Positions 5,719 through 32,886 of a stretch of DNA of 32,886 bases are shown here, in pieces (positions within the stretch are counted from its first letter, which is position 1; each line of letters begins with the position of its first letter). The stretch spans positions 1 through 32,886 of the forward strand of contig JAJSZR010000011.1 in assembly GCA_030262715.1 (NCBI GenBank), written 5' to 3'. A model generated the notes under the pieces. The model saw only the letters and a program-made list of their open reading frames with translations, did no database searches and was not told the DNA's origin. The position numbers and the translations under genes are program-made. Source of the stretch: Deltaproteobacteria bacterium. GTDB lineage: Bacteria; Desulfobacterota; Dissulfuribacteria; Dissulfuribacterales; UBA3076.

Positions 5719-6797
5719 AGCAACTCTTTGGTATGTCTGGCCCATTTGAACCGGCAGGCATGCTCATATGAAGACTCTCTAATGACACATTTTTCTTTTA
5801 ATGAAAGAGAGAAAAATGCCTCAAGTGCCTCAGTTATACTTCTATGGCATGGCCTTTCCACCACAAGCCAGTGGGCGACTTGTTCAACTATTTCCCCTGC
5901 CCCGTTTTGCCTGGTAGTAAGAGCAGGGGTTCCGCAGGCCATGGCCTCAAGAGTAGTATTGGCGAAAGGATCATACTGGGTGGGGAGTACAAAGAGGTCT
6001 GCCATGGCATATACTCGTTCTATATCTTTTACATATCCAAGCCACTTGATCTTTTGATCCAGGCCCATCATTTTTATTTTTTTCTTCAGGTTCCTGTTCC
6101 CCATCGACCCTGCCACTAACAATATAAAAGGCTGTTCTCTGAACTGGGCAAGAGCGGACAAGAGTTGGTTTAGACCCTTACGGCGCAGATCAGAGCCTGC
6201 AAAAACTAAGACTGTTGCATCATCTGAAATGCCCATTGATTTTTTTGTTAAAACCCGATCCTCTTGAGTCATTGGGCGAAACCGTTTAAGATTTACTCCA
6301 TTGTAAATAACTGTAACTTTCTCAGCACATTCGCTGTAGTAATGTTGCACCTGGCCTTTTACTAACTGTGAATTAGTTACAATGGCCTTGGCTTCTTTGA
6401 TTGCCTTGGCCTCCATCCAGAGAAGCAGCCTGTGTCTGGGCCTGAGGCGTCTGAACTTAGTACTTTTCTGATAACCCAGGTCCAGCCATGCGGCATGCAA
6501 CGGATCTGATATTCTAAGAACGTCTACCGGGGCCGCTCTTGAAAGGCCATAGCTCACTTCAAAATCGCCTGCTTTAAGGACCTGCCTGGCATTCAAAAAA
6601 AAACTCAAATTCTTAAGAATGCTCCCCCTTCCCCACACAGAGGCCCTGGAGAACGGCAGGTCCGGCAAAAGAGACTTGTCCGCCAATACTGTCACGTTAT
6701 GGCCCATCTCCGTCAACCAGGTACAAACGTTAGCACAGTAAGCTTCCGCACCTCCAAGCCCCAGTCCGCACTCTCTACGCACTACAGCTATTCTCAA
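5685..6797 (-). CDS. GT4 family glycosyltransferase (WaaG/RfaG-like)
   Basis: This is a retaining GT-B glycosyltransferase of 370 residues, about the usual size. The N-terminus MRIAVVRREC then GLGGAEAYCANV is the GT4 acceptor-domain start with a glycine-rich loop. The C-terminal domain begins with VFAGSDLRRKGLNQLLSAL, and the nucleotide-sugar site shows DPFANTTLEAMACGTPAL with the E-x7-E spacing. The N-terminus resembles LPS core glucosyltransferase WaaG, so a role in core oligosaccharide assembly is likely, given the LPS kinase gene directly upstream on the same strand (100-bp gap). The donor sugar is inferred only from that resemblance. Its last codons overlap the convergent capsule-type gene. 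Confidence 0.85.
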   Translation of the reverse strand: MRIAVVRRECGLGLGGAEAYCANVCTWLTEMGHNVTVLADKSLLPDLPFSRASVWGRGSILKNLSFFLNARQVLKAGDFEVSYGLSRAAPVDVLRISDPLHAAWLDLGYQKSTKFRRLRPRHRLLLWMEAKAIKEAKAIVTNSQLVKGQVQHYYSECAEKVTVIYNGVNLKRFRPMTQEDRVLTKKSMGISDDATVLVFAGSDLRRKGLNQLLSALAQFREQPFILLVAGSMGNRNLKKKIKMMGLDQKIKWLGYVKDIERVYAMADLFVLPTQYDPFANTTLEAMACGTPALTTRQNGAGEIVEQVAHWLVVERPCHRSITEALEAFFSLSLKEKCVIRESSYEHACRFKWARHTKELLQCLGPISRAI

Positions 6798-7809: not shown

Positions 7810-7900
7810 AAAAACTACTACGCTCCTTTTCGGTAGTCAGGGGCTTCGGTTGAAAAATAAAGTATAACTTTCCCAATGTTGATCCAATTCAATTCGGCCA

Positions 7901-8135
7901 TATTCTGAAGTGAACCTCTTTTGACTATAGTCGTGTTGGCTGGTCATCACTGGCTGACATTCTTCTCATTATTACTGCCCCAGGTCTGATACAGCTCCTG
8001 GTAAAGGGCGCTGCTCTCCATTAACTCCTCATGTGTCCCGCTGTCTACTATGCGACCCTGGTCGATAACTATGACCTGGTCCGCGTGGATGATGGTCGAA
8101 AGCCTGTGTACGGTGGTCCTGCCACTCATTCAAGG
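7901..8135. repeat. direct repeat, copy 1 (3' end of msbA and its trailer)
   Basis: This stretch matches 10208-10442 with an offset of 2307 bp. From 7901 to about 8112 only about three differences are seen; after that the copies diverge with a short deletion in this copy. The repeat covers about 46 bp of trailer behind msbA plus the last roughly 50 codons of msbA. It marks one edge of the rearranged block 7901-10207. Confidence 0.92.
7947..8129 (-). pseudogene. 3' fragment of msbA (duplicate)
   Basis: The frame encodes the last part of an ABC transporter nucleotide-binding domain: HRLSTIIHADQVIVIDQGR through SALYQELYQTW to NEKNVSQ. This is virtually identical to the C-terminus of the complete MsbA at 10254-12074, with one substitution (QTWG for QTWS). 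Only the H-loop and the tail remain; Walker A, signature and Walker B motifs and all membrane segments are missing, so it cannot be a transporter. It begins about 16 bp after the stop of the membrane protein gene at 8145, at the point where two pieces of DNA seem to have been joined. Confidence 0.88.
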
Positions 8136-10124: not shown

Positions 10125-10207
10125 TCACTGCGGAGTACACTGAGTACGCCTTGCATCCGGGGCATTTTGAGCGGAATCATATTTCGGGCTTTTTGCAGTG
10201 TAATTAA

Positions 10208-10442
10208 TATTCTGAAGTGAACCTCTTTTGACTATAGTCGTGTTGGCTGGTCATCACTGGCTGACATTCTTCTCATTATTACTGCTCCAGGTCTGATACA
10301 GCTCCTGGTAAAGGGCGCTGCTCTCCATTAACTCCTCATGTGTCCCGCTGTCTACTATGCGACCCTGGTCGATAACTATGACCTGGTCCGCGTGGATGAT
10401 GGTCGAGAGCCTATGGGCAATCACTATTGTGGTTCTGCCCTT
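10208..10442. repeat. direct repeat, copy 2 (3' end of intact msbA)
   Basis: This is the partner of 7901-8135. It includes the trailer behind msbA and the last codons of the intact gene, so this copy is the original and the other the displaced one. Confidence 0.92.
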
Positions 10443-24173: not shown

Positions 24174-25424
24174 GTGCAAGCAAAGTTGAACGAAAAAGAT
24201 CTTTTCCAAATGGCCTTGGGAATTTCAGAGCCTTGGCAGGTTGTGAAAATCGAATTTAATGCCGAAAGTCACCGACTTGACCTTTATCTAGACTTTCCTG
24301 AAGGAAGCAATTTTCCATGCCCGGTATGCGGAAAATCGTGCTTGGCCTACGATACTGATGAGAGGTCCTGGCGCCACCTGAACTTCTTTGAGCATCTCAC
24401 TTATCTGCATGCGAGACTGCCCCGAGTGAAGTGCGATGAGCACGGAGTGAAGACAGTTGGAGCCCCATGGGCACGACCTGGTGCAGGCTTTACCTTACTT
24501 TTTGAGGCGCTCATAATGACATTCGCAAAAAATGGCATGACACCCAAAGCGATCAGCCGACTCGTAGGAGAGCACGATACCAGAATATGGCGGGTGCTTG
24601 AACATTATGTGGAGGCCAGTCGTGCCAAGGAAGATTTTTCTCCCGTATCCATGGTCGGCGTGGACGAGACATCAAGGGCCAAAGGGCATACTTATGTGAC
24701 TCTGTTTGCTGACATGGAGAAACATAAGGTCATCTTTACCACCGAAGGCAAGGACCACACTACCATTGAGAACTTCAGGCAAGACCTTGAGGAACATGGC
24801 GGTGATGCCTTGAAGATAACCGACTTCTCAATAGACATGTCCAAGGCCTTTATAAAAGGCATAGGTGAGAAATTTGAGAACGCTGCAATAACCTTTGATA
24901 AATTTCATGTGATCAAGATCATCAATGATGCTGTGGACAAAGTGAGGCGTGCCGAGCAGAAGCTGTGCCCCGAACTGAAAAGGACCCGCTATGTCTGGTT
25001 GAAAAACGAAGAGAACCACACCGACAGTCAACGTGAGATTTACGAGGAGCTAAAGGATTCGACCCTAAAGACTGCCAGGGCATGCCGTATCAAGGACATG
25101 CTGCAAAAGCTCTATGAGCGGCCCGCTGAGGATGCGCCTGCTCATTTAAAACGCTGGTACTTCTGGGCAACGCATAGTCGTCTCACTCCTATCATCAAAG
25201 CCGCCAAAACCATTAAGGTACACTGGGACGGAGTGATGAGATGGTTCGAGTCTGGCCTTAATAACGGGTTTATGGAAGGAATCAACAGTTTGGTTCAGGC
25301 GGCCAAAGCCAGGGCCAGAGGGTATCGTTCAACCAAAAAGATGAAGGTGATGATCTATCTCATTGCCGGTAAACTGAATTTCGATCTGCCGAGGGTAATG
25401 CCCTATGCTACCCACACTAAATAG
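24174..25424 (+). CDS. ISL3-family transposase
   Basis: A 416-residue transposase that cuts and joins the element's ends with a DDE active site. The N-terminal zinc-finger-like part has CPVCGKSC and a later Cys (LPRVKCDEHG), followed by a helix-turn-helix in PKAISRLVGEHDTRIWRVLE. The catalytic core shows MVGVDETSRAKGHTYVT (first Asp), KITDFSIDMSKAFIKGI (second Asp), FHVIKIINDAVDKVRR and FMEGINSLVQAAKARARGYR (Glu). The GTG at 24174 starts the frame; the TTG at 24186 (LNEKDLFQMALG) is nearer the usual ISL3 N-terminus and has GAGAGG upstream. The frame is intact and closes inside the right inverted repeat, so the element could be active. Confidence 0.92.
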   Translation: MQAKLNEKDLFQMALGISEPWQVVKIEFNAESHRLDLYLDFPEGSNFPCPVCGKSCLAYDTDERSWRHLNFFEHLTYLHARLPRVKCDEHGVKTVGAPWARPGAGFTLLFEALIMTFAKNGMTPKAISRLVGEHDTRIWRVLEHYVEASRAKEDFSPVSMVGVDETSRAKGHTYVTLFADMEKHKVIFTTEGKDHTTIENFRQDLEEHGGDALKITDFSIDMSKAFIKGIGEKFENAAITFDKFHVIKIINDAVDKVRRAEQKLCPELKRTRYVWLKNEENHTDSQREIYEELKDSTLKTARACRIKDMLQKLYERPAEDAPAHLKRWYFWATHSRLTPIIKAAKTIKVHWDGVMRWFESGLNNGFMEGINSLVQAAKARARGYRSTKKMKVMIYLIAGKLNFDLPRVMPYATHTK

Positions 25425-25433: not shown

Positions 25434-25787
25434 AAAAATAACAAATAGGTAATGCACTCATATAGGAAGACTCTTCTCGTTCGATTTTGACTGCGCACAC
25501 CTTGCCCAACAGCTATACATTGGTATGAATCCCAAAACGTGTTGCTCTGATCGGCTTTTCCTTTGACTTTTTTCATCTCGGTCTTCATAGATAGTAATAT
25601 TTCAGAGGAAATCGGGGAAATCTTCGGTTCTTGTGCTCATAGCCTGCCGAATAAGCAATCCTCTTTTTTTGGAGATGGACACGAATATGCAGAAACTGAA
25701 TATTGGAGTATAAAAAGTTCTAGATATCTCCGTATTCGAGATTCTGGTATACTGGAATATCCAGCACTCTAGCTACTCTACTGTTAT
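25434..25787. repeat. dispersed repeat module, copy A (upstream of DUF2281/MazF)
   Basis: About 354 bp present again at 27934-28200 (left part) and 31326-31546 (right part). Copy A is the longest. It begins with AAAAATAACAAATAGG at the IS end and closes with CTACTGTTAT, after which copies A and C have unrelated sequence. Near its right end is TACTGGAATATCCAGCA (25750-25766), a near-perfect 7-3-7 palindrome that is perfect in copy C, probably a promoter-associated operator or hairpin. The frame reading NTFWDSYQCIAVGQG on the minus strand does not look conserved as protein. Confidence 0.85.
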
Positions 25788-25834: not shown

Positions 25835-26047
25835 ATGAGTCTGACAGATAAAATTATTGAAAATGTCAGGTCATTGCCCGAGTCAAAACAGATAGAAATT
25901 CTTGATTTTGTGGAATACTTACGGGCAAAAATAGAAAAAGAAGAAAGAAAAGAATGGACGGGCCTTTCCCTTACGTCAGCAATGAGGGGAATGGAAGAGG
26001 AAGAGTTAACGTATTCCATGAATGACCTAAAGGAAACTTATTCATGA
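25835..26047 (+). CDS. antitoxin, DUF2281 family
   Basis: A 70-residue acidic protein with the DUF2281 pattern: a helix TDKIIENVRSLPESKQIEIL, then DFVEYLRAKIEKEE and an Asp/Glu-rich tail. Family members are found as antitoxins paired with PIN or MazF toxins. GGAGGG lies six bases before the ATG at 25835. The TGA overlaps the ATG of the next gene (ATGA at 26044-26047), the standard toxin-antitoxin coupling. It probably binds the MazF-like partner with its C-terminal tail and may regulate the operon. The promoter is presumably in repeat module A directly upstream. Confidence 0.82.
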   Translation: MSLTDKIIENVRSLPESKQIEILDFVEYLRAKIEKEERKEWTGLSLTSAMRGMEEEELTYSMNDLKETYS

Positions 26048-26391
26048 TTTTTGAAGGACAAATTATTCTATTTAGGTTTCCACAAACAGATCAAACGGAA
26101 GGGAAACTTCGTCCCGCCCTTGTTTTGCGTAGATTGCCCGGAAAATTTGATGATTGGCTTATTTGTATGATCTCTTCTCAGCTTCATCAGCAACTACCTG
26201 AATTGGACGAAGTAATTACTTCTGAGAACTCCGACTTCCTGGAATCCGGGTTGAAACTAGCGAGTGTCATCCGAGTCAGCAGGCTTGCAGTTGTAAGTAG
26301 CGAGATTATTCTTGGAAAATTGGGCCGGATAGATCAGAAGCGACTCATCAGGATCAAGGAAAATATAATAAAATGGATTAAAGGCGCATAA
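26044..26391 (+). CDS. MazF/PemK-like toxin
   Basis: A 115-residue protein of the MazF/PemK endoribonuclease family, which cleaves mRNA when free of its antitoxin. The SH3-like barrel is visible as GQIILFRFPQTDQTEGKLRPALVLRR with the substrate-binding K-x-RPAL segment, then LICMISSQLHQQLPELDEVI and SVIRVSRLAVVSSEIILGKLG, ending in a helix IRIKENIIKWIKG. The start ATG is inside the antitoxin stop (ATGA). The arrangement, antitoxin first with four-base overlap, is typical type II. The sequence looks complete. Confidence 0.85.
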   Translation: MIFEGQIILFRFPQTDQTEGKLRPALVLRRLPGKFDDWLICMISSQLHQQLPELDEVITSENSDFLESGLKLASVIRVSRLAVVSSEIILGKLGRIDQKRLIRIKENIIKWIKGA

Positions 26392-27933: not shown

Positions 27934-28200
27934 AAAAATAACAAATAGGTAACGCGCTCATATAGGAAGACTCTTCTCGTTCGATTTTGACTGCACACAC
28001 CTTGCCCAACAGCTATACATTGGTATGAATCCCAAAACGTGTTGCCCTGACCAGCTTTTCCCTTGACTTTTTTCATCCCGGCCTTCATAAATAGTAATAT
28101 TTCAGAGGAAATCGGGGAAATCTTCGGTTCTTGTGCTCATAGCCTGCCGAATAATCAATCCTTTTTTGGGAAGATGGGCACGTATATGCAGAAACTGAAA
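27934..28200. repeat. dispersed repeat module, copy B
   Basis: This copy matches the left three quarters of copy A (25434-25700) closely, starting AAAAATAACAAATAGG, but lacks the right part with the palindrome and the GTTAT end. After the common CAGAAACTGAA it continues with GAGGAAGAGCTAAC, which resembles the end of the DUF2281 gene beside copy A (GAGGAAGAGTTAAC), hinting at an internal deletion of a DUF2281 locus. The remainder to 28302 shows no recognisable gene. Confidence 0.85.
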
Positions 28201-28302
28201 TGAGGAAGAGCTAACATTACCATCCGCTGGCGGCGATTGTGCGATGTGATAAGCAAAAAGCGGAAGATTATTGGCCGTATTTTAGAAAAGATAAAAGGAA
28301 GG

Positions 28303-29788: not shown

Positions 29789-29867
29789 AACGAAGGAAAA
29801 TCGTAACCGTTCAGGGGTTCAGGATTTAAAGGTTCAAAGGTTCAGGATTCACCGAAAATCTGGGATT

Positions 29868-30070
29868 TAGGGGACATCTTATCTTATCCCTGTCAAGCTA
29901 AAAATTTCCTTTTTTAAAACAGCTAGTTGAATATTTGGATGTTTATAAAGCGCAAATTCCCTGTTGGGGCTGTAGCTGCTCCTGCAAAAGGTCTGGCGGA
30001 ACTCTCACCAATAGCGAATCCTGGATCTAATGTTATCTAGTATCCGGCGTGCTTTGTTTCAAGCCGCCTA
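29868..30070. repeat. dispersed repeat R, copy 2
   Basis: The copy of 26571-26807 without the GC-rich insert, from TAGGGGACATC to GTTTCAAGCCGCCTA. The stop of the small basic protein gene at 30068 lies at its edge. The opening palindrome is less perfect here. Confidence 0.8.
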
Positions 30071-31325: not shown

Positions 31326-31546
31326 CCCTTGACTTTTTTTATCTCGGCCTTCATAAATAGTAATATTCCAGAGAAAATCGGGGAAATCTTCGGTTCTTGT
31401 GCGCATAGCCTGCTGAATAATCAATTCCCTTTTTTTGAAGGTAGGCACGAATATGCAGAAATTGAAATATACAGGGTTCTAGATATCTCCATATTCGAGA
31501 TTCTGTTATACTGGAATATCCAGTATTCTAGCTACTCTATTGTTAT
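31326..31546. repeat. dispersed repeat module, copy C (upstream of the 77-codon gene)
   Basis: The right two thirds of module A. It ends with CTATTGTTAT (GTTAT at 31542-31546), the same place where copy A ends, and beyond it copies A and C differ completely. The palindrome TACTGGA-ata-TCCAGTA at 31509-31525 is perfect here. It probably provides the promoter region for the gene at 31588. Confidence 0.85.
31509..31525. promoter_or_regulatory. perfect 7-3-7 palindrome in module C
   Basis: TACTGGAATATCCAGTA is found 63 bp before the start of the 77-codon gene, and with one change at 25750-25766 before the DUF2281 antitoxin. Its conservation in front of two unrelated genes suggests a binding site or a structure belonging to the module itself. 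Confidence 0.5.
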
Positions 31547-31587
31547 GGCTACCTGATTGAATTTGTGCAAATTTAAAGGAGTATTGT

Positions 31588-31821
31588 ATGGGAAAAATTC
31601 GTATGAATGCAGAAGTCCGAACTGATTATGAATGTGAAGTAACAGGACTTCCTGCTGAACGTTGGGGAGAGGTTGTTTTTAAAATCGAAGACGAAGAAAT
31701 CGTATTTGAAGTTAGTGTTGAGAAAGACGTAATTGTAGCAATTATGGTAGGTGAAAATACAGCATGGAAAGGCACTTTAGCTGGCCTTAAACAATTGATA
31801 AAAGATGCTCATAAAGCATAA
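31588..31821 (+). CDS. orphan small protein, probable gene-cassette product
   Basis: A 77-residue protein starting MGKIRMNAEVRTDYECEVTG, mostly beta-strand-like (EVVFKIEDEEIVFEVSVEK, VIVAIMVGENTAWKG) and closing with a helix LAGLKQLIKDAHKA. No family is recognised. AAAGGAG is well placed before the ATG. It lies between repeat module C, whose end resembles an integration boundary, and an attC-like site starting 18 bp after its stop. Such short, unknown, well-framed genes followed by attC are the usual contents of integron cassettes. Confidence 0.78.
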   Translation: MGKIRMNAEVRTDYECEVTGLPAERWGEVVFKIEDEEIVFEVSVEKDVIVAIMVGENTAWKGTLAGLKQLIKDAHKA

Positions 31822-31838
31822 CTAACCAAACTGACTCC

Positions 31839-31962
31839 ATATAACAACGCCATTCTCTCGGACGGGCAGAATCGTGGCGTTTGATCTTTTACCAATTGTT
31901 GTGTTTAATCATCATAAATCAAGGCCTGTTTATCCCGCCCGCTGGTGATGGCGGCGTTTTAT
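31839..31962. other. attC-like integron recombination site (VCR-type)
   Basis: A 124-bp imperfect palindrome. The left end reads ATATAACAACGCCAT, the right end ATGGCGGCGTTTTAT; these complement each other as in attC R''-L''/L'-R' boxes, with a few unpaired bases. Internal words GTGGCGTTT (31874-31882) and TTGTTGTGTTT (31897-31907) are the same as in the Vibrio cholerae repeat, and the total length agrees with VCR (about 123-126 bp). The outer 7-mers deviate from the RYYYAAC/GTTRRRY consensus at one and two positions. The position directly behind a small orphan gene is that of a cassette end. No integrase gene is in the window. Confidence 0.6.
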
Positions 31963-32429
31963 ACCGCTGAGTTCCCTTGCCAGATCAATTGAGGATGGTG
32001 AGGGGATCACGGGATTGAGGTCACAGGTAGCAGGACCCGCAAAGTTCATTCAGAAACAGTCCTCCAAATCACACCAGGCCGCAGTTGGGCATTTCTTGTC
32101 AGCGCTGGCTTAACCAGTATCACAAAGAGGGTGACAATTTCCGGCCTCAATTGTCAGGAATTGTCAGCCGAGTAAAAGAGATAATGCAACGAGTTAGCCA
32201 TGAAACCCGAAAAAGAAAAGCGAAAAAAGGCTACACACTTCAAGGCAGGTGTCGTTTAGTATGGGGCAAAGCAATTTCCTGTGCGGCCGGGCGAGGTCGC
32301 ACATTCTAGCGGGTTGGATGCCAGCCCCGGAAGGCTGGTCAGCCACCGGATAGCGAGTCGAGAAAAGGGGGTATCAAAGCTGGTTTCGATAGACTTGGTA
32401 GAGAGTCCGGCATCTTGAAACCCTGTGGT
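31963..32429. other. gene-free stretch with a GC-rich structured segment
   Basis: No reliable gene is seen. At 32279-32360 a GC-rich segment can fold: GTGCGGCC with GGTCGCAC, and CCAGCC-ccggaa-GGCTGG. A GTGCG start followed by such stems resembles the 5' end of some group II introns, and a relic of one lies at 26424, but no further intron part is present. Purine-rich sequence at 32195-32240 precedes it. The upstream part of the stretch shows nothing. Confidence 0.3.
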
Positions 32430-32886
32430 ATGCAGATCGATATCAACCGCCTTAAGAAAAGTCAGCTCTATTCCGAGGAATTGGGCATCAACCTGTGGGA
32501 AGACGACGACAGGGAAATCTTCAAGTGGTTTTTGGCAAGCCTGCTTTTCGGGGCTCGGATATCGGAGATCATTGCCAAAAAAACCTATAAGACCTTTGAG
32601 AGATATCACCTGCTGGAGCCCAAAACCATATTAGAGAGCGGCTGGGATTTCCTGGTAAGTCCGATCATGCGGGAGGGAGGATACGTCCGTTATGACGGGA
32701 AGACCTCTACCAAGGTCCTGAGAAACTGCCATGCGATCCTGGTGAAATATCATGGAAGCCTGAAAAATCTGCACAAAGAGGCACAAAATAGCAGAGACCT
32801 TGAAAGCAAGTTAACAGGCCTTTATGGCGTAGGTCCTGTAACTGCCAATATATTTCTCAGGGAATTAAGGACGGTCTGGGAAAAAT
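32430..32886 (+). CDS. helix-hairpin-helix DNA-repair-like protein (partial, 3' end outside)
   Basis: From an ATG at 32430 the frame stays open for 152 codons to the edge of the window. It reads MQIDINRLKKSQLYSEELGI and later FKWFLASLLFGARISEIIAK, SGWDFLVSPIMREGGYVRYD and LTGLYGVGPVTANIFLREL. The last is a helix-hairpin-helix (GVGPVTA) as in HhH-GPD DNA glycosylases and endonuclease III; the first two helices also match that superfold. A lesion-specific glycosylase or an uncharacterised HhH protein is likely. The catalytic Lys/Asp lies beyond the window end. No ribosome binding site is evident, and the open frame continues upstream, so the start is uncertain. Confidence 0.65.
   Translation, partial: MQIDINRLKKSQLYSEELGINLWEDDDREIFKWFLASLLFGARISEIIAKKTYKTFERYHLLEPKTILESGWDFLVSPIMREGGYVRYDGKTSTKVLRNCHAILVKYHGSLKNLHKEAQNSRDLESKLTGLYGVGPVTANIFLRELRTVWEK

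Follow-up and report, generated by a model that had tools for sequence, protein, structure and literature searches.

The Desulfobacterota are among the groups from which integrons are known (PMC8618304), and for Deltaproteobacteria an attC model is available (PMC8352920). Cassettes also occur away from a complete integron: IntegronFinder groups them as CALIN, for which at least 2 attCs are required (PMC9024848), and insertion of cassettes at nonclassical attG sites has been described (Loot et al. 2024, cited by PMC12444791). The locus described here recalls these systems and, in its attC, the Vibrio repeats (VCR) of the Vibrio sedentary chromosomal integrons. It lies in a stretch of 32,886 nucleotides from a Deltaproteobacteria bacterium (GCA_030262715.1, contig JAJSZR010000011.1), hereafter the window. 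Based on our findings, we propose that positions 31543-31956 are in all likelihood a single integron gene cassette, consisting of a 77-codon gene, its own ribosome-binding site, and a 124-bp attC that has diverged but is of the same long type as the Vibrio repeats. The proposal draws on the match to attC models, the pairing within the site, the geometry of gene and attC, the integrase and other cassettes of the genome, the conserved DNA downstream, and the divergence of repeat copies at a G|TT. The features of the locus are as follows.

31326-31542, + strand: dispersed repeat of 217 bp ending ...CTATTG|TT, a candidate attI-like or attG-like landing site.
31543-31956, + strand: putative gene cassette of 414 bp, from G31542|T31543 (divergence of the repeat) to G31956|T31957 (R'' core).
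31575-31581, + strand: ribosome-binding site AAAGGAG, upstream of the 77-aa ORF; DNA similarity to relatives in metagenome-assembled genomes (MAGs) begins here.
31588-31821, + strand: cassette ORF of 77 aa, GC 0.37 versus 0.46 for the window.
31839-31962, + strand (top strand shown; folding and recombination involve the bottom strand): attC site, from covariance models R1 and R2.
31839-31845 and 31848-31853: attC boxes R' (ATATAAC) and L' (CGCCAT), separated by the spacer AA.
31948-31953 and 31956-31962: attC boxes L'' (ATGGCG) and R'' (GTTTTAT), separated by the spacer GC.
32278-32886, + strand: genus-conserved chromosomal gene region, 94% to G002:C6 and, from 32388, 96% to G004:C217.

The original prediction described an attC-like 124-bp palindrome with Vibrio-repeat words, placed just behind a small gene in the manner of a cassette. 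Our analysis bears out this description. The imperfect palindrome at 31839-31962 begins ATATAAC-AA-CGCCAT and finishes ATGGCG-GC-GTTTTAT. Its central words GTGGCGTTT and TTGTTGTGTTT are common to the Vibrio repeat in identical order, and CGTGGCGTTT and TTGTTGTGTTT likewise occur in both with their order kept. Nowhere else in the window, on either strand, do Vibrio-repeat 9-mers cluster so densely, and the site's global similarity score against 21 Vibrio repeats is 63, where shuffles give a mean of 54.4 (SD 1.6). A simple arm-pairing scan could not tell the site from shuffles; we therefore turned to covariance models, a kind of check that the original prediction had also suggested. Model R1 was made from 21 nonredundant Vibrio repeats of a Vibrio plasmid with a chromosomal-type array, with the bottom-strand structure written down, and model R2 from 6 Vibrio repeats, 2 sites of contig C86, and 2 from other genomes of the order; the window site was excluded from both. 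Each model matched 31839-31962 significantly, over its full length and on the minus strand: R1, run with filters off, at 27.9 bits (E 3.5e-6; runner-up in the window, 12.2 bits) and R2 at 30.5 bits (E 1.9e-6; runner-up, 8.1 bits). The search tool describes its E-values as rough, but the distance from the background is large. When R2 was applied to the whole genome, the window site was one among the eight matches listed (E 1.6e-4). Run on 138 kb of further sequence, R1 gave 2 matches with E <1, one being a C86 attC and the other lying in a relative's array. As a control for R2, the class 1 aadA1 attC of plasmid R100 (L061 1976-2035), absent from the training set, was recovered with 27.5 bits, and there were no evident false matches in 155 kb. 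A scan of Rfam gave no match at the gathering score, and a search of plasmid DNA with the window site gave chance matches only.

The boxes pair in the bottom strand: 6 of 7 pairs form in the R box, the L box joins CGCCAT to ATGGCG, and 24 of the 27 pairs of the R2 structure are standard. We regard the identity of 31839-31962 as an attC as established at the level of sequence and pairing. Several features nevertheless count against a cassette here. The R2 score of the site is 30, versus 76-126 for nearly all Vibrio repeats, and the one bulged base beside L is an A, which is atypical. R'' (GTTTTAT) falls short of the full consensus GTTRRRY, keeping the GTT triplet and the final Y with 2 of the 3 R positions wrong. 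In an array, the bases past the G of R'' derive from the next segment, so the R'' consensus is the least binding feature of an attC.

The 77-aa ORF runs in the same direction as the attC, with a measured gap of 17 nt between its stop codon and R', and its start codon is 46 nt inside the left edge of the putative cassette, as in a typical cassette. Three proteins of MAGs filed as Desulfobacterales or Deltaproteobacteria are 74-77% identical to its product, and the genes for 2 of these 3 have the same chromosomal neighbourhood. An attC was sought behind the gene in all three MAGs and none was found. Local DNA alignments to these relatives span 31575-31805, starting at the ribosome-binding site and stopping a little short of the stop codon, and the GC of the ORF resembles that of the MAGs and not that of the window. 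On this evidence the gene was probably acquired, and elsewhere it is a plain gene. A family search with the 77-aa protein gave no convincing match; its predicted structure is of low confidence (pLDDT 68) and had no PDB match with E <0.5.

The left edge of the cassette is suggested by the dispersed repeat that precedes it. Copies of 31326-31542 are found at 25560-25787 (86%), at 28060-28201 (90%, partial), and in a related genome (G007:C182, 80%); the roughly 220-bp element as a whole extends over 25434-25787, 27934-28201, and 31326-31542 in the window and over 5776-5998 of G007:C182, and the palindrome CTGGAATATCCAG stands shortly before its end. The three full copies agree through CTCTA(C/T)TG (CTGTACTG in G007) and diverge at the next T, TT, or TTAT. 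Integron recombination crosses over at G|TT, and the copies diverge at that very motif; the cassette would therefore be 31543-31956, with 31542/31543 as a recombination junction and the attC crossover point at G31956|T31957. It counts against this proposal that the left junction is drawn from three repeat copies only and that no attC is found downstream of the other two full copies. A comparison of joined flanks found no empty site among the repeat copies.

On the right, the genus-conserved region begins 316 bp downstream of the attC and holds a complete gene in two genomes of the genus, and no further attC is found between the window site and 32278. An array continuing rightward is unlikely because this conserved region begins at 32278. 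The original prediction was right that the site is a lone copy on its contig, and the lack of a second attC there counts against the cassette reading. The surroundings are a mosaic of repeats, with many copies of 32072-32184 and 29862-30070 in the source genome and in the genus. Elsewhere in the window, 7900-8108 and 10207-10415 form a 209-bp direct repeat that is 98.6% identical.

The assembly comprises 2.6 Mb in 220 contigs, and across it one gene, with 377 bits, scores above the threshold set for the integron-integrase model (265). This gene, at C103:7912-8841 on the minus strand, encodes a protein of 461 aa with an N-terminal extension and an intact tyrosine-recombinase domain. Contig C103 stops about 66 bp ahead of the start codon, and many relatives' contigs likewise stop near the integrase start, as would be expected if arrays break assemblies, an effect described in PMC9024848. 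The window site is one of at least about six plausible attCs in the genome, all directly behind a same-strand ORF. The sites among the matches listed for R2 are on C86 (two, both in its training set), C156, C174, and C40, and C86 also has a third, weaker attC. Each of the 7 accepted attCs directly follows a stop codon on its own strand, for which the chance at a random position is about 0.17 each. Because the first filter of the genome-wide searches scored only part of the candidates (the best 150 of 409 and the best 150 of 537), these counts are lower bounds and further attCs may exist. An R2 match on C163 was judged false, being inside a coding frame and without R boxes. On C86, 3396-5971 (L063) is an array of at least 3 long attCs with chromosomal genes on its flanks and no local integrase. 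Other cassettes of the genome contain the toxin–antitoxin pairs RelB/YafQ and DUF2283/DUF4258; cassettes with two ORFs can encode such pairs (PMC8618304).

The statement in the original prediction that no integrase is present thus holds only locally: no integrase match is listed on the window contig, whereas the genome has the integrase on C103 and several other cassettes. The genome search that it called for found the integrase gene and other long-type attCs but no near-copy of the window site, the next blastn match being 16 nt long (E 0.37). Its view that the occurrence is unusual for such a genome is contradicted, since integrons are common here: 30 of 60 relatives have an integron integrase above the cut-off, in keeping with the Desulfobacterota integrons of PMC8618304. 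In one relative (G025), a classical array is beside its integron integrase. In one genome of the genus (G004), contigs C233, C135, C215, and C118 carry three genes for integron integrases and part of a fourth, and the contigs of the three begin near the gene start. Two further loci, L064 (1501-1632) and L065 (1501-1631), are near-alike long attCs from two genomes that share a taxonomic order but belong to different families, which suggests an exchange of cassettes between those genomes.

We suggest the following as the most likely origin of the locus. Integron integrases recognise attCs in the form of the folded bottom strand and cut them at G|TT. Such an enzyme would have released the cassette from an array in circular form and joined it to a G|TT where the dispersed repeat ends. 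The cassette would then have stayed at the repeat end, solitary and decaying. The enzyme that moved it would be the integrase of this same genome, encoded on C103. The repeat itself could be the attI site of an integron since lost, a target of the attG type, or an unrelated element that ends there by chance.

The first of these options leads to an explanation that we consider possible, if rather unlikely, namely that a local integron shrank by deletion of its integrase and other cassettes, which would make 31326-31542 a genuine attI and the cassette the last one still in position. The repeat ends ACTG|TT, like the DNA ahead of relatives' integrase genes (L013, ATACTGTTAGCG; L044, ACAACTG|TTGTGCC), and different small genes come after different repeat copies, one of them a toxin–antitoxin pair of DUF2281 and a PemK/MazF-like protein (25835-26391) that directly follows a copy and has no attC behind it. 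Against this stand the lack of attCs at the other full copies and the failure to demonstrate an integrase remnant beside the repeat. A reading frame to the left of two copies was considered as such a remnant and dropped, since it shows no significant likeness to integrases; no relatives of it were found in 297 genomes of the phylum or in plasmids. The left part of the copy at 25434 adjoins a 416-aa ORF (24174-25424) that by eye resembles an ISL3-type transposase.

For the transferred and now decaying cassette that we prefer, the bottom-strand fold is of interest. The original prediction asked for such a fold; the free fold of the site is no better than shuffles (minimum free energy z -0.62), which counts against a cassette. 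Free folding of DNA is not a discriminating test for an attC. Two Vibrio repeats have z-scores of -3.26 and -1.23 and two C86 sites -3.74 and -4.71, and the C174 site folds as poorly as the window site (+0.40). With its weak fold, an R'' that departs from the consensus, and an atypical bulged A, the window site is diverged and probably a poor substrate. Activity of the cassette at the present day is doubtful, and any that persists would be low. A cassette that is still active and movable, belonging to the genome's integron but lying outside its array, would account for the largely intact R and L pairing and for the full-domain integrase in the genome, but we consider it improbable in view of the same three weaknesses of the site and of two other attCs of the genome that fold far better. 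Reading the palindrome as a transcriptional terminator, or as an inverted repeat that arose by chance, could explain its place behind a stop codon and its unremarkable free fold, but has very little chance of being correct against E-values near 1e-6 over the window from two models built without the site, a clean background, Vibrio-repeat words in the correct order, and arms more than 80 nt apart, unlike those of an intrinsic terminator.

These findings add an uncultured lineage that has an integrase, scattered cassettes, and long attCs resembling Vibrio repeats. The window cassette adds one more case, solid but ordinary, to a kind of element already known. Worth following are cassette genes that have noncassette twins and the possibility that the repeat serves as a landing site. 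How a plain gene turns into a cassette is, to our knowledge, still poorly understood, and the 77-aa gene, as a cassette gene with close noncassette relatives, is useful for studying it. We regard as a long shot the broader scheme in which the repeat is a dispersed family of attI-like landing sites, the genus drops single cassettes away from the integrase, and the 77-aa cassette was recently converted from a plain gene.

Among known systems, the window site resembles the Vibrio repeats, with a length of 124 versus 125-129, R and L arms, the two central words, and a position behind a gene. It differs in the shorter centre between the two words and in being a single copy, and with 61-74 identical columns of about 130 aligned (about 55%) it is not a VCR by close identity. 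It also resembles the attCs of C86 (3396-3521 and 5844-5971) and C174 (1854-1985) in its own genome, which are 126-132 long, have a central GNGGCG-TTT-like word, and stand behind a gene; the C86 sites, however, fold strongly and form a small array, whereas the window site is solitary and weak. A complete integron would have intI beside attI and the cassettes, and here the integrase sits on C103; either model, with filters off, finds one attC in the window, fewer than a CALIN contains. Like CALIN and attG-inserted cassettes, the locus has an attC without an adjoining integrase, joined to chromosomal DNA at G|TT, and the cassette may have had an attG origin. It has, directly before its attC, the short same-direction ORF of a gene cassette.
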